Source: Polaribacter sp. SA4-12
Lineage (GTDB): Bacteria > Bacteroidota > Bacteroidia > Flavobacteriales > Flavobacteriaceae
Reading direction: 5' to 3'
Length of the DNA: 64,000 nt
Assembly (NCBI RefSeq): GCF_002163675.1
Contig: NZ_CP019334.1
Coordinates: 382,001 to 446,000 of the forward strand
Below the pieces are notes generated by a model. The model was given only the letters and a program-made list of their open reading frames with translations, had not been told where the DNA came from and made no database searches. A program made the translations under genes and the position numbers. Below, in pieces: positions 11,036 to 18,206 of the stretch. Every line of letters begins with the position of its first letter. Position 1 is the first letter of the stretch.

Positions 11036-11476
11036 TTATTCTGTCTTTAATAATAAGCTTGTAAAGAAGTTGATTAAATGTATAAAGGTTGATAATAGGA
11101 AAATTAAAAAGGATAAAGCGATTACAATCGTAGAATTATCATTTAAAAGTTGACTTCCAGCATCAGATTGTTGCCCAATCCAATTCCAACTATTATTGGT
11201 AAGAATTAAAAGTATAGCAACAGTTTGAAGTATTATGTGAACTATTGTTAATCCTTTTTTTGATGGTTTTTCTGCCCAATGTAATGAGAAATAATTAATA
11301 CCAATCATAGCAAAAAATATTGCAGAGAATAGATATAAATGAAAATGTGTAATTACTAAATAAGAATCATAAATATTGATATCAAGAGTTTTATCATCAC
11401 TTAAAAAACTAAAAAGGATACATATTGGCACTAATCCAAAGAAAAAAAGGTAGGGTTTCTTAATAATTTTATTCAT
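11036..11476 (-). CDS. Small four-helix membrane protein with a heme-copper-oxidase-like HxH helix
   Basis: This 146-residue protein has about four membrane segments. The second contains YDSYLVITHFHLYLF, which looks like the helix of cytochrome oxidase subunit I that carries the two adjacent histidines (consensus near VVAHFHYVL). The remaining subunit I ligands are absent and the protein is far too short to be an oxidase. I start at the ATG at 11476; a TTG five codons upstream is possible. It follows the DinB-like gene by 23 bp. The resemblance may be real descent or convergence of a short hydrophobic motif, so no function is assigned. Confidence 0.7.
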   Translation of the reverse strand: MNKIIKKPYLFFFGLVPICILFSFLSDDKTLDINIYDSYLVITHFHLYLFSAIFFAMIGINYFSLHWAEKPSKKGLTIVHIILQTVAILLILTNNSWNWIGQQSDAGSQLLNDNSTIVIALSFLIFLLSTFIHLINFFTSLLLKTE

Positions 11477-11499
11477 AAAAATTGAATACAAATTTTTGA

Positions 11500-12108: not shown

Positions 12109-14196
12109 TTATTCAGGTTTTACAGCTTCTCTTGTAGCAGTAACTTTACTTAATAATCTTTTTAAAATCATTAAAATAGTTTCTTGGTTTTGTAAAGTAC
12201 CATCATTAAAAGCAGTTGTTATTGTTTCATTTATGATTAAAGTAGGTGTTGTTGTATTATTCATAGCGCTTTTTATAGCTTCAACTTTTGCTAATAATCT
12301 TTCTGATATTTTCAACATTTCTAACTGATTTAACTCTGTACCGACATCTATTAGATCTATATCTAGTCTAACAAAATTAATGTCTTCTTCTGGTATTAAC
12401 TCTTTATAAAGGTTAGGGCCATTTGATAATATGTCTACTTGTACCTCTATACCATTTGTAGGCACTGTACTTGGTACTAAAAAATGACTTTTAAAAACAG
12501 TTGTTACTGGCGATAAAAAATAAATTACTGTGAGATTATCATTATTTATAATTGATACATCGTTAGTCGTACTTTGATTCCATTTTAAATGCACAAATTT
12601 GTTTATTCCATTACTATCTATATAACCATGTTCTAAAGTAGCACCATTATAAAGAGTAATATTAGCTGTTGTTTTAATACCTTTAAATTTACTAGTAGTA
12701 AGTATTGTATTCGATTTTATGGTAATCGTTTTCGAATTTGTGTCTACAGAAAAAACAGCACTAGCAGTTGCATCGATAACTAAGTTATAGTCTCCGATAT
12801 TTAATAAAGAACTTTCATTTATAATTAGTAATTCATTTATACTTGGTATTTCTAAATTTGTTTGGTTTAATTGTTTCCAATATTTTGCATAATCATATAA
12901 TTGACCTAAATTATCAATTGTTGAATATGCTGCAACAACAGTAGCATCTGTTTCTGTGATATTAGTATCTTCAAACATGGTCCAATCATAAGTCAACTCA
13001 CTTATTCCTTTTAATTTTTGAATAGATTTTGTTAGTATTTTATTGTAATGATAAAAATAGATGTCAAATTCATCATCTGTATTATCATTTTTACTTCTTC
13101 TATCAAATACAACAAATCCTGTACTTAAATGATTAACGGCTCCTGTAAGTATTTCTGTTGTAGGTATTAATCCACTTGCATTGGATGTTTTAAAATAGGT
13201 TCTGTCACTTGTAAAAGTGTAACCGTTTCCGTCAACTCTTTTATTGTTATTAGTATCTCTAATAAACATTTTTGCATTTTGAATTGGAACACTTTTTTCA
13301 TCTATTATTTTAGGTGCTATTTCTTTTATAATTTGCCAAGTACCTGTTGATGAATTATTACCAATTAAATGTTCTTCTACAATTAAATTTGTTCCATCGG
13401 ATGAATTGATGATTTTCCCTTTTCTATTAGACCAAAGACCTAAATCTAATCTATTTCCTCTACCACCTCCAGAATAATCTCTAAAATTATATTGTATGGA
13501 GGAAGAAGAACTACTAAAACTAATTCCTTCATCGGCAATAGTAGGCATATATCCATCAAATTGAAGTGGAGTACCAACCATTGTCATGGCGTACTTTACC
13601 ATTTTAAAATTATTAGCTGTTAAATTATTAGAAAATTGCCTTATTTGATATTGTGGATCTGGAGTCGCTAATAACTCAATTCTTCCATCTTGAATGTTTA
13701 CAGTTGAATTTGGATAAAATTTAATTGAAGAAGAACATTCAATGCCTCCTCCTTGCATATTAAATGTACCTGAGTCACTAACGTCTAAAGAAAAATTTTG
13801 ACCGTAATCATTTCTATCATAAGTTGTTCTAATTGCTATTCTTTGTAAATATGAAGTGAAGCCATTGATTGTTTCAAAGTCTTTTATATTAAGTGTGCCA
13901 ATTACTGATATTATACTTCTTGGGGCAGCAGAACCTACAAGTAACATTTCTTTTGAAGCATCTATTGTTAGGTTTCCATTAATTATTAATTGTCTGTCAC
14001 CAATATCGTATATCGTATATTCACTATCAGTTCCTAATCCTACTTGCACTAATGTTACTCCACTTATACTTGCTAATCCAGATAAATCTGTATCTGTATT
14101 TGTTTGTGTAATTATTGTAGCACTAGTTAAAGTAAATGTAGCTTGTACATAAATTGTAAATGTAAAAAACAAAAAAGTTAATATTCTTTTTTTCAT
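12109..14196 (-). CDS. Large secreted beta-rich surface protein (fibre-cluster gene 6)
   Basis: This 695-residue exported protein has a signal peptide (MKKRILTFLFFTFTIYVQA). The body is rich in Thr, Ser, Asn and Ile, with repeated short strands such as RQLIINGNLTIDAS, FNMQGGGIECSSS and TVNIQDGRIEL, which suggest a parallel beta-helix like those of adhesins and tail spikes. The C-terminal about 100 residues change character and become helical with two related units: ISERLLAKVEAIKSAM and LKRLLSKVTATREAV, perhaps a coiled-coil trimerisation or anchoring region. There is no T9SS sorting domain. It lies 17 bp after the previous cluster gene and is likely co-transcribed with it. Function is inferred only as a surface fibre component. 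Confidence 0.72.
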   Translation of the reverse strand: MKKRILTFLFFTFTIYVQATFTLTSATIITQTNTDTDLSGLASISGVTLVQVGLGTDSEYTIYDIGDRQLIINGNLTIDASKEMLLVGSAAPRSIISVIGTLNIKDFETINGFTSYLQRIAIRTTYDRNDYGQNFSLDVSDSGTFNMQGGGIECSSSIKFYPNSTVNIQDGRIELLATPDPQYQIRQFSNNLTANNFKMVKYAMTMVGTPLQFDGYMPTIADEGISFSSSSSSIQYNFRDYSGGGRGNRLDLGLWSNRKGKIINSSDGTNLIVEEHLIGNNSSTGTWQIIKEIAPKIIDEKSVPIQNAKMFIRDTNNNKRVDGNGYTFTSDRTYFKTSNASGLIPTTEILTGAVNHLSTGFVVFDRRSKNDNTDDEFDIYFYHYNKILTKSIQKLKGISELTYDWTMFEDTNITETDATVVAAYSTIDNLGQLYDYAKYWKQLNQTNLEIPSINELLIINESSLLNIGDYNLVIDATASAVFSVDTNSKTITIKSNTILTTSKFKGIKTTANITLYNGATLEHGYIDSNGINKFVHLKWNQSTTNDVSIINNDNLTVIYFLSPVTTVFKSHFLVPSTVPTNGIEVQVDILSNGPNLYKELIPEEDINFVRLDIDLIDVGTELNQLEMLKISERLLAKVEAIKSAMNNTTTPTLIINETITTAFNDGTLQNQETILMILKRLLSKVTATREAVKPE

Positions 14197-14213
14197 TTTG
14201 ATGTTTTACTTAA

Positions 14214-14855
14214 TTAGAAAGTTAAAGCAGTACATGCTGCTAAAGTAGTAGGTTGTGTTGTTTGGCCTATATTGTTTGTTTTAGTAGCGATGTCTTCTAC
14301 ATTTACATCAGTCTTATCATATCGTATTACTTTCCAATTTCCATTTATTATAAGAGACACATATCTAAAATCGTTATTTGTAGCATCTGCATCATCATCA
14401 CCATCAAAAATAAGTTCGTTATTTACTGAATTAAATGTAATTGGTTTCCAAGTATTATCAGCTCTTAAATAGGCATTCTTATTATCTGAACTATAAATTA
14501 CCATTCCTTCGGTTGGAGCTGCTATTTCTGTAGTATTTGTTTCAGTAGGTAAAAGCAGTGCAAGCTTTTGAGTATTGGTTAAATCAAGTAGTAATTCTAC
14601 TTTGGTATTTACTAATTTCCAATTTGTACCATCGTAAATTTTAGTTCTAATCTTATCTAGATCAGTATTATCAAACCAAGTATCACCAAGTAAAGGAGAT
14701 GTTGGAGCAGTTACAGAAGTTGTAACACTATTACTAATAACCGTTTTTAAAGTTCCTTTATTATCAATAACTCTAATTTCTTGAGCAAAACTTAATTGTA
14801 CGCAATTTGCACACAGAATAAATATTAGAATTTCTAAGATTCCTTTATAAGACAT
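14214..14855 (-). CDS. Exported tail-fibre-like protein (fibre-cluster gene 5)
   Basis: A 213-residue exported protein with signal peptide (about residues 1-24, ending SFAQ). It contains IRVIDNKGTLKTVISN near residue 27, which is repeated in the next gene upstream. It then has SPLLGDTWFDNTDLDKIRTK followed by IYDGTNWKLVNT, a phrase family common in tail-fibre and collar-type proteins. A second unit, GMVIYSSDNKNAYLRADN, follows, and the protein ends with TTQPTTLAACTALTF. I infer a surface fibre subunit. Phage proteins of this type lack Sec signal peptides, so cell-surface use is more likely than a prophage remnant. A long hairpin at 14904-14950 separates it from the previous gene. Confidence 0.72.
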   Translation of the reverse strand: MSYKGILEILIFILCANCVQLSFAQEIRVIDNKGTLKTVISNSVTTSVTAPTSPLLGDTWFDNTDLDKIRTKIYDGTNWKLVNTKVELLLDLTNTQKLALLLPTETNTTEIAAPTEGMVIYSSDNKNAYLRADNTWKPITFNSVNNELIFDGDDDADATNNDFRYVSLIINGNWKVIRYDKTDVNVEDIATKTNNIGQTTQPTTLAACTALTF

Positions 14856-14903
14856 TGCTATTAATCTAATCTTGCAAATAAGAATTTTAAGTATTCAAAA
14901 CAT

Positions 14904-14950
14904 ATTATTTAAAAGAGTTGATAATTTAAGAATCAACTCTTTTAAATAAT
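14904..14950. terminator. Long hairpin between fibre-cluster genes 4 and 5
   Basis: ATTATTTAAAAGAGTTGA (14904-14921) is perfectly complementary to 14933-14950, giving an 18-bp stem with an 11-nt loop. Its A/T-rich ends could act as a terminator in either direction or as an mRNA-stabilising element that sets the stoichiometry of the cluster genes. Confidence 0.6.
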
Positions 14951-15001
14951 AGATATAATTAAACAAAAAATTAGAACTTTTAAGGGGTTGCTATTTTAAA
15001 T

Positions 15002-15745
15002 TTAGTAAATCCACTGTACTTCAATAATGTCACCTGCATAAGTAGTCCAATCATTTGGCGCTGCAGCACTAACATCAAGAGTAATAGTATCATCAGCAGT
15101 AAGTGTGTAATCTATAGCAGCTCTAAGTTTTGCTCCGTTTCTAAATACAGATATTTTATTAATAGAAGTTCCCATAGCTAAACCTGTAGCTGTTACAATA
15201 AGATTACCATCTGCTGCTATTGGAAACTCAGTACGACCAGCTGTAATTAAATGAGTAGCTAATAATTTTTTTGTTTCTCCTGTTGCTTCATCTCTAATTA
15301 AGACTGTCCAACCAGTTCCAGCACCTCCATGAGAAGTTGCATCTGCTGCTGTAGTGGCTATAGATGCAGTTGTGGCTGCACCAGCAGTTAAAGTTGGGCT
15401 AACTAGTTTTATTCCATCAAGCGCAAATACTTTACCAGTAGCATCAATATATGTATTGTCTGTTAAAGTACCACCTAATTGCCAAGTAGAAATAATACCA
15501 CCGTCAGTAGCAACGTCTGTAAGTAATGTTAAACCATTTTTTACTTGTAAGAATTTTTTAGTTCCTTTATTATCTATAACTCTAATAGTACCATTAAGAA
15601 CAGACGACTTACTAATGTCTTCTTTTTTACCAATTTTAGTTGTTCCATCTGTTTCTGTTGCATCACCTGTAACTTGCTGTGCTTGTATGTTAGAGCCTAT
15701 CACCATTATAATGGTTAATACAGTTAATTTTAAATATTTAGTCAT
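15002..15745 (-). CDS. Exported tail-fibre-like protein (fibre-cluster gene 4)
   Basis: A 247-residue exported protein with signal peptide (cleavage likely after IQAQ, about residue 22). It carries IRVIDNKGTKKFLQVKNG near residue 55, shared with the 14214 gene, and STWQLGGTLTDNTYIDATG, a fibre-like LGGTLT unit. The C-terminal about 85 residues form a domain whose start (RTEFPIAADG), middle (KISVFRNGAKL) and end (GDIIEVQWIY) align with the C-terminus of the 15843 protein. Codon use is richer in Ala/Gly/Thr than neighbours, common in repetitive surface proteins. Likely a fibre or adhesin subunit. Confidence 0.72.
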   Translation of the reverse strand: MTKYLKLTVLTIIMVIGSNIQAQQVTGDATETDGTTKIGKKEDISKSSVLNGTIRVIDNKGTKKFLQVKNGLTLLTDVATDGGIISTWQLGGTLTDNTYIDATGKVFALDGIKLVSPTLTAGAATTASIATTAADATSHGGAGTGWTVLIRDEATGETKKLLATHLITAGRTEFPIAADGNLIVTATGLAMGTSINKISVFRNGAKLRAAIDYTLTADDTITLDVSAAAPNDWTTYAGDIIEVQWIY

Positions 15746-15842
15746 TCTATTTTATTTTAGATTGTTATTATTTTTAATATTTCAATAAAATTTTAATTAG
15801 TGTTTTTCATATTGCATGTAAATTTGGGGGTTAGTTTTTAGG

Positions 15843-16976
15843 TTAATATAATTGTACTATTCTTATTTTATCGTTTTTATAACATATCGCTTCAGGCTCT
15901 AATTTTATAGTTGAATTATTAACGGCTGTGAAATTTATAAGAACACCGTTTCTGTAAACGTCTATATTCTCAGTATTTGTAATACTTAAAGGAATAGGGA
16001 ATTCAAGTTGTCCATCAGTAGCAATAATTATTACTTGTTTTTGTTGAGAGAGCATTAATAATGGTTTTTGTCTTAAAACTCCTGTATTCTTATCTACAAC
16101 AACAATTAAATCTTCCTTATTTACACTTTCTTGTAAACCTTTTATTGACAATGTATTTGTTTGATCTGTAGTGAGCTCTGTAGGTTCTATTAAATGACCA
16201 CCTAGTTTAATGGTATTTCCATCTTTATGAAGTCCATTTAAGGCTTTTGTTGTTATTGAAACCCAATTAGAACCATCAAATACTTGAATACATTTTAATG
16301 TTTTGTTCCAAACTTGATTTCCAATAACTGGAGTTTTAAACTTTGTACTTCTAGCGATATCATTTGCCACAACTATAAGACCTAATTCATTAGCATCATC
16401 ATAATCTTCATTAACTGGTACCCAGTTAAAGTCATCCCAAATTAATAGAGTGGGGTTTTTATTTGCACCAAAACTTGTAATCCAAATTAAGGTACCTTTA
16501 CTATATGGAGGATTTAGTTCTCTTAAAGAATTTACGATTTTTATAGTACCAGTTCCGTTATTCTGATGTGGTATATAAAGTATTTTTTGACTATCTAAAA
16601 AGACAAAACCTTCATTATTACTTATAATATTTAGTTCTACATTTAAGTATTTTAGTTTACCATCCCAATTAATATTTTCAAAAGTGAAGTTTATAGGAGT
16701 TCCTTCACCAACAATAATAGAAACCATCCCATTTTCATCTGTTCTAATATCGTGTTCTTCTGTATATTCTATACCTGCATCATTTGTTATTGTAAAACGT
16801 AGCGTAATATCTTCTAAATCTAATGGAAGATTTTTTGTTGTTACATCTGTTCCTGGAATCTGAATTTCTTCATTATTTAAAATTAAAGCTTGATAATTAA
16901 AACCTGGAGTTTGACCAAGTACAATTGTACTGGTCAGTAAAAAGAAAAAGAGCTCTATTTTATTTACAAACTTCAT
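15843..16976 (-). CDS. Exported fibre-like protein with FNYQA N-terminal domain (fibre-cluster gene 3)
   Basis: 377 residues from the ATG at 16976; upstream codons in the same frame would put non-signal sequence before the obvious signal peptide (MKFVNKIELFFFLLTSTIVL), so the later start is chosen. After cleavage comes GFNYQALILNNEEIQIPG, a Bacteroidota surface-protein N-domain that ends near residue 130 with SQKILYIPHQNN. The middle has GNQVWNKTLKCIQVFDGSNW and LHKDGNTIKLGGHLIEPTEL, both fibre-like. The C-terminus (QLEFPIPLSIT, NIDVYRNGVLINF, DKIRIVQLY) is homologous to that of the 15002 protein. It begins 13 bp after the beta-barrel gene, so it is co-transcribed. Confidence 0.75.
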   Translation of the reverse strand: MKFVNKIELFFFLLTSTIVLGQTPGFNYQALILNNEEIQIPGTDVTTKNLPLDLEDITLRFTITNDAGIEYTEEHDIRTDENGMVSIIVGEGTPINFTFENINWDGKLKYLNVELNIISNNEGFVFLDSQKILYIPHQNNGTGTIKIVNSLRELNPPYSKGTLIWITSFGANKNPTLLIWDDFNWVPVNEDYDDANELGLIVVANDIARSTKFKTPVIGNQVWNKTLKCIQVFDGSNWVSITTKALNGLHKDGNTIKLGGHLIEPTELTTDQTNTLSIKGLQESVNKEDLIVVVDKNTGVLRQKPLLMLSQQKQVIIIATDGQLEFPIPLSITNTENIDVYRNGVLINFTAVNNSTIKLEPEAICYKNDKIRIVQLY

Positions 16977-16989
16977 TGTTTTAGGTTTT

Positions 16990-17676
16990 TTAAAATCCTC
17001 CGTAACATTTATTCCTTGGGTTATTAATATTAAAAAGTATTCCGTAGGAAATTGCATCTGTATGAAATGTATATTTCTCTTTAATATTACTATCTTTATT
17101 TTCTTCTCTTAAACTATCAGCAATGTTATATTTTACATAGGTTGAAATTCTATCAGACATTGTATATTCTACACTAATACCTTTATGAAAACGGATAAAA
17201 GTTCTATCGAAAGTATTGTCTTTATAAATGTCATTAACTACATCTTTATATTTATTTGTTCCCGTCATAAGCCAATCGTGAGAAAGGTGTGTGTGCACTA
17301 GCACTTTAAATTTAGGTTCATTAACAATCGAAAAATTAACTCCGGTTTTTATTGTTACATACGTTAAACTGTATGTTAGAGGGATACTTTCTGTACCTGA
17401 ATAAAAACCAGTATTAATTTTATAACTATTGTAACTCATTCCTATATCTCCTTTTAATCTATCATTATAAATATTAAATCGAAAACCACTTTCTAAGAAA
17501 AAATCATAAGATTTATAATAATTTAAATCCAATGTGTTTTCCCCCATATTATTAACATAATCTTTAAAATACGCACTTTCTAAACCTGTTTCAAAATAAA
17601 CTTGTTGTGCATTTACTTTAAAAATTAGAATCGTAAAAAATAATAAAAAGCTATATTTCATTTTATTTCTTAACAT
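16990..17676 (-). CDS. Putative outer-membrane beta-barrel protein (fibre-cluster gene 2)
   Basis: A 228-residue protein with signal peptide (a second ATG at 17661 gives the cleaner signal MKYSFLLFFTILIFKVNAQ). Beyond it, alternating polar/aromatic strands such as VYFETGLESAYF, DFFLESGFRFNIY, LKGDIGMSYNSYKI and YVKYNIADSL suggest an 8- to 10-stranded barrel. It lacks PorP/SprF-specific motifs that I would recognise. Its position, 5 bp after a T9SS cargo gene and 13 bp before a fibre-like gene, suggests a role as outer-membrane anchor or export partner for the cluster; this is inference. Confidence 0.72.
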   Translation of the reverse strand: MLRNKMKYSFLLFFTILIFKVNAQQVYFETGLESAYFKDYVNNMGENTLDLNYYKSYDFFLESGFRFNIYNDRLKGDIGMSYNSYKINTGFYSGTESIPLTYSLTYVTIKTGVNFSIVNEPKFKVLVHTHLSHDWLMTGTNKYKDVVNDIYKDNTFDRTFIRFHKGISVEYTMSDRISTYVKYNIADSLREENKDSNIKEKYTFHTDAISYGILFNINNPRNKCYGGF

Positions 17677-17681
17677 TCTAA

Positions 17682-18206
17682 TTACTCTACTTTTATTATT
17701 TTTTTGGTTGCTATATTTTTTCCACTCTCAATTTGTATTAAATAACTTCCCAAACTAAAATTTTTCATAGAAATTACAATTTTATCAGTAGGAGAAAACT
17801 TTTTATTAGCATATACTTTACCATTTATATCATAAATTCTAAGGTAAATCTCATCCGTAGTTTTTTTAGAAAAGTCTATTTTTATATGGTCTACAAAAGG
17901 ATTTGGAGATATTATAAAGTCTAAAGTTTCAGTAATAGAGTTCTTTTTAGAGTTATCTACTTTTAAAGAAATAGTATTCGTTAGAAAACCTTGTTGTACA
18001 GTTACTGATTTTAATTCCTTTTTACCAATTATACTAGATTGACCAACGCTTTGTTGAATGCGATATTTATTGTTATTTGTATAAACAGTAGCAGAACCAA
18101 CTGAGGTTAAGGTAGATTTTTGTACAGAATACTTTTTCACTGTTTGTTGCTGTGAGAAAGCAAAACACTGATGAAGGATTAAAAATAAAAGGATAAACTT
18201 TTTCAT
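17682..18206 (-). CDS. T9SS type A sorting domain-containing protein (fibre-cluster gene 1)
   Basis: 174 residues: signal peptide (ends FAFSQ), a short domain (about 20-90) containing VGSATVYTNNNKYRIQQSVG and KSVTVQQGFLTN, and a C-terminal T9SS type A sorting domain from about residue 100. That domain has the diagnostic IISPNPFVDHIKIDF, LRIYDINGKV and GSYLIQIESGKNIATKKIIK. The protein should be exported by Sec, carried across the outer membrane by T9SS and anchored or released. It is the first gene of the cluster and precedes the barrel gene by 5 bp. Confidence 0.85.
   Translation of the reverse strand: MKKFILLFLILHQCFAFSQQQTVKKYSVQKSTLTSVGSATVYTNNNKYRIQQSVGQSSIIGKKELKSVTVQQGFLTNTISLKVDNSKKNSITETLDFIISPNPFVDHIKIDFSKKTTDEIYLRIYDINGKVYANKKFSPTDKIVISMKNFSLGSYLIQIESGKNIATKKIIKVE

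Follow-up and report, generated by a model that had tools for sequence, protein, structure and literature searches.

Genes of the locus

The window analysed here, a 64-kb stretch (64,000 nucleotides) of the genome of Polaribacter sp. SA4-12, carries at 12109..18206 six adjacent open reading frames (ORFs), g1 to g6, all on the minus strand. A first-pass annotation, made from the sequence alone, had listed these ORFs in the same order and had read them as a chromosomally encoded set for a surface fibre or adhesin; they are present as listed, and that reading is supported as the best one. Its picture of a single six-gene cluster held in part: g1 to g5 are kept together, but the six genes are not one unit. 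They comprise a widespread three-gene core (a cargo of the type IX secretion system (T9SS), an outer-membrane barrel and a protein with an FNYQA domain), a separable module formed by the C-terminal part of g3 (g3C), g4 and g5, and the optional g6. The features are as follows.

17682..18206, minus strand: g1, short T9SS type-A cargo, 174 amino acids (aa); Por_Secre_tail and TIGR04183, both over cut-off
16990..17676, minus strand: g2, outer-membrane barrel, 228 aa, 8 long strands predicted (AlphaFold model)
17005..17007, minus strand: codon of Cys224 in the C-tail of g2 (NKCYGGF), the sole Cys of g2
15843..16976, minus strand: g3, FNYQA-domain protein and putative base, 377 aa from the likely start
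15843..17057, minus strand: longest ORF of g3, 404 aa, which would overlap the barrel gene g2
16554..16913, minus strand: FNYQA domain, N-terminal in g3, which includes the IPG insertion found beside barrels
15846..16049, minus strand: domain X, C-terminal in g3 (residues 337-404 of the long ORF)
15002..15745, minus strand: g4, putative connector protein, 247 aa, without known domain
15536..15586, minus strand: motif Y, N-terminal in g4 (IRVIDNKGT)
15005..15178, minus strand: domain X, C-terminal in g4, limits approximate
14903..14951, minus strand: perfect 20-bp hairpin between g4 and g5, from folding energy
14214..14855, minus strand: g5, putative variable tip or linker, 213 aa; N-terminus conserved, remainder exchangeable
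14730..14780, minus strand: motif Y, N-terminal in g5 (EIRVIDNKGT)
12109..14196, minus strand: g6, optional distal protein, 695 aa; N-terminal part variable, C-terminal part conserved

All six proteins begin with a basic and hydrophobic stretch and have a plausible signal-peptidase site, judged by eye, in line with the signal peptides assigned to them in the first pass; the six products are probably exported. The gaps of 5 bp (g1-g2) and 13 bp (g2-g3) given there hold if g3 begins at the ATG at 16976, and this start is preferred since the orthologue in locus L037 suggests it. The assignment of g1 to the type-A cargo proteins was borne out by Pfam (Por_Secre_tail, E 2.8e-12, 47.2 bits against a cut-off of 27) and NCBIfam (TIGR04183). 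The product of g2, described earlier as a beta-barrel, gives a confident AlphaFold barrel with 8 long strands; its structural neighbours are generic small barrels, and its Pfam match to OMP_b-brl (E 0.014) is below the cut-off. The phrases thought to recall tail-fibre proteins are indeed present, FDGSNW in g3, LGGTLT in g4 and YDGTNW in g5. Searches of g6 against Pfam, NCBIfam and PHROGs gave nothing at E<=1.

Conservation of the locus

A profile of the barrel (A1) matched 17 of 166 genomes of the genus, 14 of them strongly, and in all 14, the window included, the order g1-g2-g3-g4-g5 and the site are kept. As this order recurs in 13 other genomes with a strong barrel, the gene set is more than a chance assembly. 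These loci (type I) have as neighbours the genes for Ffh (14/14), DinB (12/14) and MsrB (12/14). At window positions 11036-11491, between the Ffh and DinB-type genes, lies a gene, also found in L035 and L036, whose product is a small membrane protein resembling COX1 weakly and below the cut-off. Conservation thus holds fully for g1 to g5 and in six of the 14 type-I loci for g6, which was found in none of the 28 type-II loci scanned (see below). The six loci with g6 share one class of g5 C-terminus and are the same six genus loci of type I whose barrels carry a Cys in the tail; g6, the g5 class and the tail Cys may merely mark one lineage.

In the sample of the family, the barrel profile matched 41 of 397 genomes and 36 of 237 genera, counting the genome of the window and its genus. 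One locus from each of the other 40 genomes, together with two distant loci of the genus, gave 42 loci in which the neighbourhood was checked. In all 42 (40 of the family, two of the genus) the barrel has a short type-A cargo, matched over its full length, as its neighbour, and an FNYQA gene is present in 40, the two misses (L118 and L128) being loci that stop at contig ends. The comparison of gene order across the Flavobacteriaceae, proposed in the first pass, therefore yields a cargo-barrel-FNYQA core in 40/42 loci, and the suggested co-occurrence of barrel and fibre genes stands for the FNYQA gene; g3C-g4-g5 also occur without a barrel, in 28 genomes. Among the 54 FNYQA proteins with both neighbours, the order is cargo-barrel-FNYQA in 44 and barrel-cargo-FNYQA in 10. 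A further nine FNYQA genes have the cargo only, with no barrel, and 22 have neither neighbour within reach; six of these 22 are second copies in triad loci (those with cargo, barrel and FNYQA gene), and some loci are cut by the flanks.

Across the phylum sample, 11 of 345 genomes matched the barrel profile, six of them weakly. Two new strong matches came from G623, which belongs to a different family of the same class, and from G645; both loci (L220 and L221) are triads as well. Weak matches, namely G104 in the genus and the six of the phylum sample, were kept out of the locus analysis, and split or short genes were counted where the pieces matched (g3 in L076 and L114; g4 in L114, L218 and L219; the barrel in L116). 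In L076, L114, L218 and L219 the split or short g3 or g4 occurs in single genomes and may reflect either decay or assembly error. The E-values and Fisher tests used in this work ignore the kinship among sequences and serve as guides only.

Several variant arrangements of the core were seen. Loci L044, L045, L046, L049, L050 and L054 have no barrel and pair just two genes, one for a short T9SS type-A protein and one for an FNYQA protein of 305-665 aa; by eye, L045, L046, L049 and L054 hold a gene for a Der-type GTPase and five of the six a gene for a regulator-like protein of ~186 aa. In L119, L122, L124, L126, L131 and L148 a single barrel is followed by two tandem FNYQA genes of ~1,050-1,135 aa, and the barrel tails are acidic with no Cys in the last 12 residues. 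L051, from another family of the order, combines the same short cargo with a different barrel of 379 aa (OMP_b-brl_2, over cut-off) and an FNYQA protein; this triad may have arisen independently.

Two locus types with one fibre module

The g4 profile was found in 42 of the 166 genus genomes, that is, in all 14 with a strong barrel and in 28 others. In each of these 28 barrel-less (type-II) loci, g4 lies between a gene for a g3-like protein and one to three g5 genes, and the g5 gene or genes are followed by a protein of 378-398 aa belonging to one family. The C-terminal part of the g3-like protein is as in g3, and its N-terminal part is different. Both members tested of the 378-398-aa family carry a type-B T9SS signal (CHU_C). 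Since g3C-g4-g5 is present in both locus types, these fibre genes come with T9SS cargo of two kinds. We regard this pattern as the best indication that the fibre works together with a T9SS cargo.

The hairpin between g4 and g5 recurs in the type-I loci. In the window it has a folding energy of -21.6 kcal/mol (z -7.4), and strong hairpins (-18.4 to -30.9) were found in all 13 type-I loci folded, against 0 to -1.7 for the g3-g4 gaps (n=14), which are mostly shorter. It may be a terminator or attenuator that sets the ratio of base to tip. Locus L075 was left out of set A7, and its g4-g5 gap is too long for folding: at L075:6853-8319, g4 and g5 are 1.5 kb apart with no matching gene in between, where the close relative L074 has 123 bp, and a gene may have been inserted or have decayed there.

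The fibre proteins

Conservation falls from g3 towards the end of g5. In 13 type-I loci (L076 and L113 omitted, because g3 is split or the filter missed g5) the mean pairwise identity is 74% for the FNYQA part, 66% for g3C, 60% for the barrel, 57% for g1, 56% for g4, 51% for the start of g5 and 38%, with a minimum of 9%, for the rest of g5. The triad FNYQA proteins show the same tendency, a 131-residue N-terminal segment being 46% identical (n=44) and the remainder 25% (n=43, one short remainder dropped). They thus have a conserved domain of ~130 aa directly after the signal peptide and a variable C-terminal part, which is the layout of the mosaic adhesive trimer (MAT) fibre proteins. The Bdello_MAT_N model matched 15 of the 44 at E<=0.01 (best 2.2e-8), and 23 of the 44, which come from other genera, contain Peptidase_G2.

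The IPG insertion of the FNYQA domain, sought with a regular expression that misses L113 (IPGEA), is present in 53 of the 54 barrel-adjacent proteins, in none of the nine with cargo only and in eight of the 22 others. Five of these eight are second FNYQA copies in triad loci, and the remaining three represent two proteins, one seen twice, from two genera of one other family.

The C-termini of 59 g5 proteins fall into 16 classes, two of which occur in both locus types. In 27 g5 proteins scanned, YadA heads were found in one and Peptidase_S74 in two, both of other genera, one of the latter also having a glycine-rich domain and CBM5/12. Some of the 27 match phage tail-fibre families, down to E 1.7e-45 among the 25 families listed out of 43. 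Neither these 27 nor g3 to g6 gave a Pfam match to a YadA-type C-terminal membrane anchor. For g4, 910 homologues were found at E<=0.001 among 8000 candidates scored, and none of the 120 listed carries a Pfam domain.

Profile comparison (20 g3, 41-42 g4 and 51-58 g5 sequences after filters) revealed a domain, X, common to g3 and g4, and a motif, Y, common to g4 and g5. With stretches cut around the letters (D)NKG, hhalign paired Y of g4 with Y of g5 at a probability of 95.8 over 17 columns; eight mismatched X/Y pairings stayed below 2%. An independent but weaker sign of Y is that the profile of the g5 start matches g4 at E of about 1e-3 to 1e-5 in many loci. The predicted fold of X matches phage tail proteins in structure searches.

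The barrel and its cysteine tail

Cysteines of the barrel family are concentrated at the C-terminus. In 53 aligned barrels the last 12 residues contain CXC in 20 cases and a single Cys in seven. Together the tails hold 47 Cys among 636 residues, whereas the rest of the mature proteins, 9,621 residues, holds 3; under this 12-residue rule L148, whose Cys precedes an acidic tail, was scored as having none. No CXC tail was found among 664 background ORFs, 36 of which have any tail Cys; for the 324 crudely called exported, the two counts are 0 and 11.

Liu et al. 2025 (PMC12635249) report that cysteines in the periplasmic C-tails of SprF and PorG form disulfide bonds with GldK, the motif being CXC in F. 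johnsoniae and a single tail Cys in PorG of P. gingivalis. A DUF6089 protein, which by its size, neighbours and tail we take to be PorG, is near-universal (38/39 genomes), and all 30 of these proteins examined carry a tail Cys; in the genome of the window its gene is a separate one, between ORFs that by eye are nadK- and uppS-like. In 32 genomes, 23 Cys-bearing barrels (19 double, four single) agree with their own PorG in the number of tail cysteines and nine barrels have none; five PorG tails of the form PCxxCFE count here as having two Cys. The comparison drew on 30 of the 40 family barrel genomes (29 with a PorG match) and three genus genomes, and covers four of the seven single-Cys barrels; the genus barrels in it all carry a Cys.

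The barrel g2 is similar to PorG in being an 8-stranded barrel, by its model, with a cysteine in the C-tail; it had no match to PF19573 (DUF6089) at E<=1 and lies outside the nadK-uppS neighbourhood. It also had no NCBIfam match at E<=1, T9SS_PorP_fam included, and is not modelled as a 14-stranded FadL-type barrel, although it has, with one Cys only, the C-tail cysteine feature of the PorP/SprF proteins; the three PorP-family genes of the genome lie away from the cluster. GldK is encoded in this genome, with Cys at frame positions 18, 285 and 342, the last two of which, from their position, should be the published Cys285 and Cys343. Because its tail Cys is like that of SprF and PorG, its Cys number follows PorG and GldK is encoded in the genome, the barrel is a candidate for a further passenger of the gliding track.

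Relation to known systems

Literature searches found no description of this gene set. The cluster would work like a MAT fibre and also like a T9SS adhesin-carrier pair, yet it is filed under neither, since g3 falls below the MAT_N cut-off and the barrel belongs neither to PorP/SprF nor to PorG. The MAT proteins of Bdellovibrio bacteriovorus, described as surface fibres (PMC10769870), likewise have a signal peptide, a beta-rich domain of ~130 aa and a variable phage-like or adhesive tip. The present fibre differs in being split over three or four genes and in having a barrel and a T9SS cargo as partners. The authors of that paper state that the partner of the MAT N-terminal domain on the cell surface has yet to be identified.

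With SprB-SprF the locus shares a T9SS-linked adhesin, a dedicated outer-membrane barrel and one or more cysteines in the periplasmic C-tail of that barrel. It differs in the 8 long strands of g2, against 14 of the FadL/PorP kind, in the short type-A cargo next to it and in fibre proteins that lack a T9SS C-terminal domain (CTD). Type-B cargo reportedly remains on PorP-like barrels dedicated to it (PMC9143113) and depends on them to be secreted (PMC12618676). PorG resembles the barrel in strand number, size and a tail Cys or CXC, to the point that PorG of G217 ends in PCYCDF and the barrel of G452 in TCYCDF; unlike PorG, the barrel is patchy in distribution and linked to fibre genes, and no sequence homology was detected between them. 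The fold matches of domain X are phage tail chains (HRP29, LME-1, T7-type entry; TSP4 of phage CBA120), in comparison with which X is C-terminal and sits on exported bacterial proteins, with 12-29% identity in the rows that cover it.

Proposed function and alternatives

On balance, the explanation that probably fits best is a modular, phage-fibre-like adhesive surface fibre held by the barrel and the T9SS cargo. That the proteins form an adhesive fibre at the cell surface is very likely. In this model g3 would be the base, its conserved FNYQA domain lying at the outer membrane beside the barrel g2 and the T9SS-exported g1, and the two latter quite likely hold or deliver the fibre. As an 8-stranded barrel would be too narrow for passage of the fibre, g2 is more likely an anchor than an exporter. 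Domain X of g3 would dock with motif Y of g4, and X of g4 with Y of g5, making g4 a connector and g5, plus g6 where present, an exchangeable binding tip; the arguments for and against such a chain, proposed from the shared sequences, are about evenly balanced. Trimers are presumed for the fibre proteins, as is their export route. More tentatively, the Cys of the periplasmic C-tail of g2, where present, might form a disulfide bond with GldK of the gliding track, as in SprF and PorG, so that the fibre tethered to the track would bear force or move. Taken to its full extent, and rather doubtfully, the locus could specify a second kind of track-linked surface appendage of the Flavobacteriaceae, derived from phage, with exchangeable head-to-tail chains on a GldK-bonded 8-stranded barrel accompanied by a short T9SS cargo, the barrel-cargo pair being the kind of element that MAT-like N-terminal domains bind.

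A number of observations weigh against this model. The g5 protein of the window has no family match over cut-off and no fibre-family match at E<=0.01; the resemblance of the g3 N-terminal domain to Bdello_MAT_N (NF053851) is weak (E 5.2e-4, 19.8 bits against a cut-off of 60), and the predicted model of g3 is poor in the middle (mean pLDDT 67.8). The likeness of motif Y spans 17 residues only and is biased toward a match at the letters around which the stretches were cut. A Pfam scan gave no T9SS signal in g3 to g6 that could take them across the outer membrane. As for the tether, C224 is the only Cys of g2, so that the tail in the window lacks CXC; profiles of the barrel and PorG showed no homology (probability 4.6); and a tail Cys is absent from 7 of 13 aligned type-I genus barrels (9 of 15 with L081 and L082) and from 26 of the 53 barrels overall, so a tether to the track cannot be general. 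The co-variation of Cys, the IPG insertion and the association with g6 are not independent of phylogeny.

The strongest alternative, itself unlikely, is an ordinary adhesin set in which the fibre is exported independently of g1 and g2, with the barrel as an accessory protein of the OmpX kind and the tail Cys serving, for example, dimerisation. The Cys-less half of the barrels, the generic nature of the fold matches and the nine FNYQA proteins with a cargo and no barrel speak for such a set; it accounts poorly for barrels adjoined by a cargo in 42/42 loci and by an FNYQA gene in all but those cut at contig ends, for the absence of CXC tails from the background ORFs and for the agreement with PorG in the number of tail Cys, seen in 23 of the 23 barrels with Cys that were compared.

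It is distinctly improbable that the role of g2 and g1 is confined to the secretion of the fibre proteins, which lack a CTD, g1 being a T9SS-borne escort and the mature fibre being released or held by lipopolysaccharide (LPS). Such an export device would agree with the presence of a T9SS signal on g1 and its absence from the fibre proteins, and with reports that type-A substrates are handled by PorV and then released or LPS-bound (PMC12618676; PMC12635249). That the FNYQA domain is the most conserved part of the fibre and carries an insertion beside barrels fits a lasting contact better, although the pattern could equally stem from phylogeny.

An origin as a domesticated piece of a prophage tail or tailocin, for which the tail-fibre matches of some g5 relatives and the phage-like fold of X might speak, is scarcely credible given the Sec-type N-terminal starts (by eye), the Ffh gene beside the cluster in 14/14 loci, the absence, noted already in the first pass, of any phage gene within or beside the cluster, and searches that gave no sign of homologues confined to prophages: pattern scans of IMG/VR yielded no tblastn-confirmed relative of the barrel, g3 or g4, and g3 and g4 had no match among 50,697 phage records.

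Significance

The adhesive fibre proposed here, held by its barrel and cargo, would give a MAT-related domain a genomically fixed partner, which makes the question of the MAT partner testable in culturable bacteria. If the Cys tail does tie the barrel to GldK, the gliding track gains an outer-membrane passenger besides SprF and PorG, and the barrels with Cys (27/53) can be compared with those lacking it. The exchangeable tips of g5, finally, suggest how marine Bacteroidota may diversify the targets of their adhesion.

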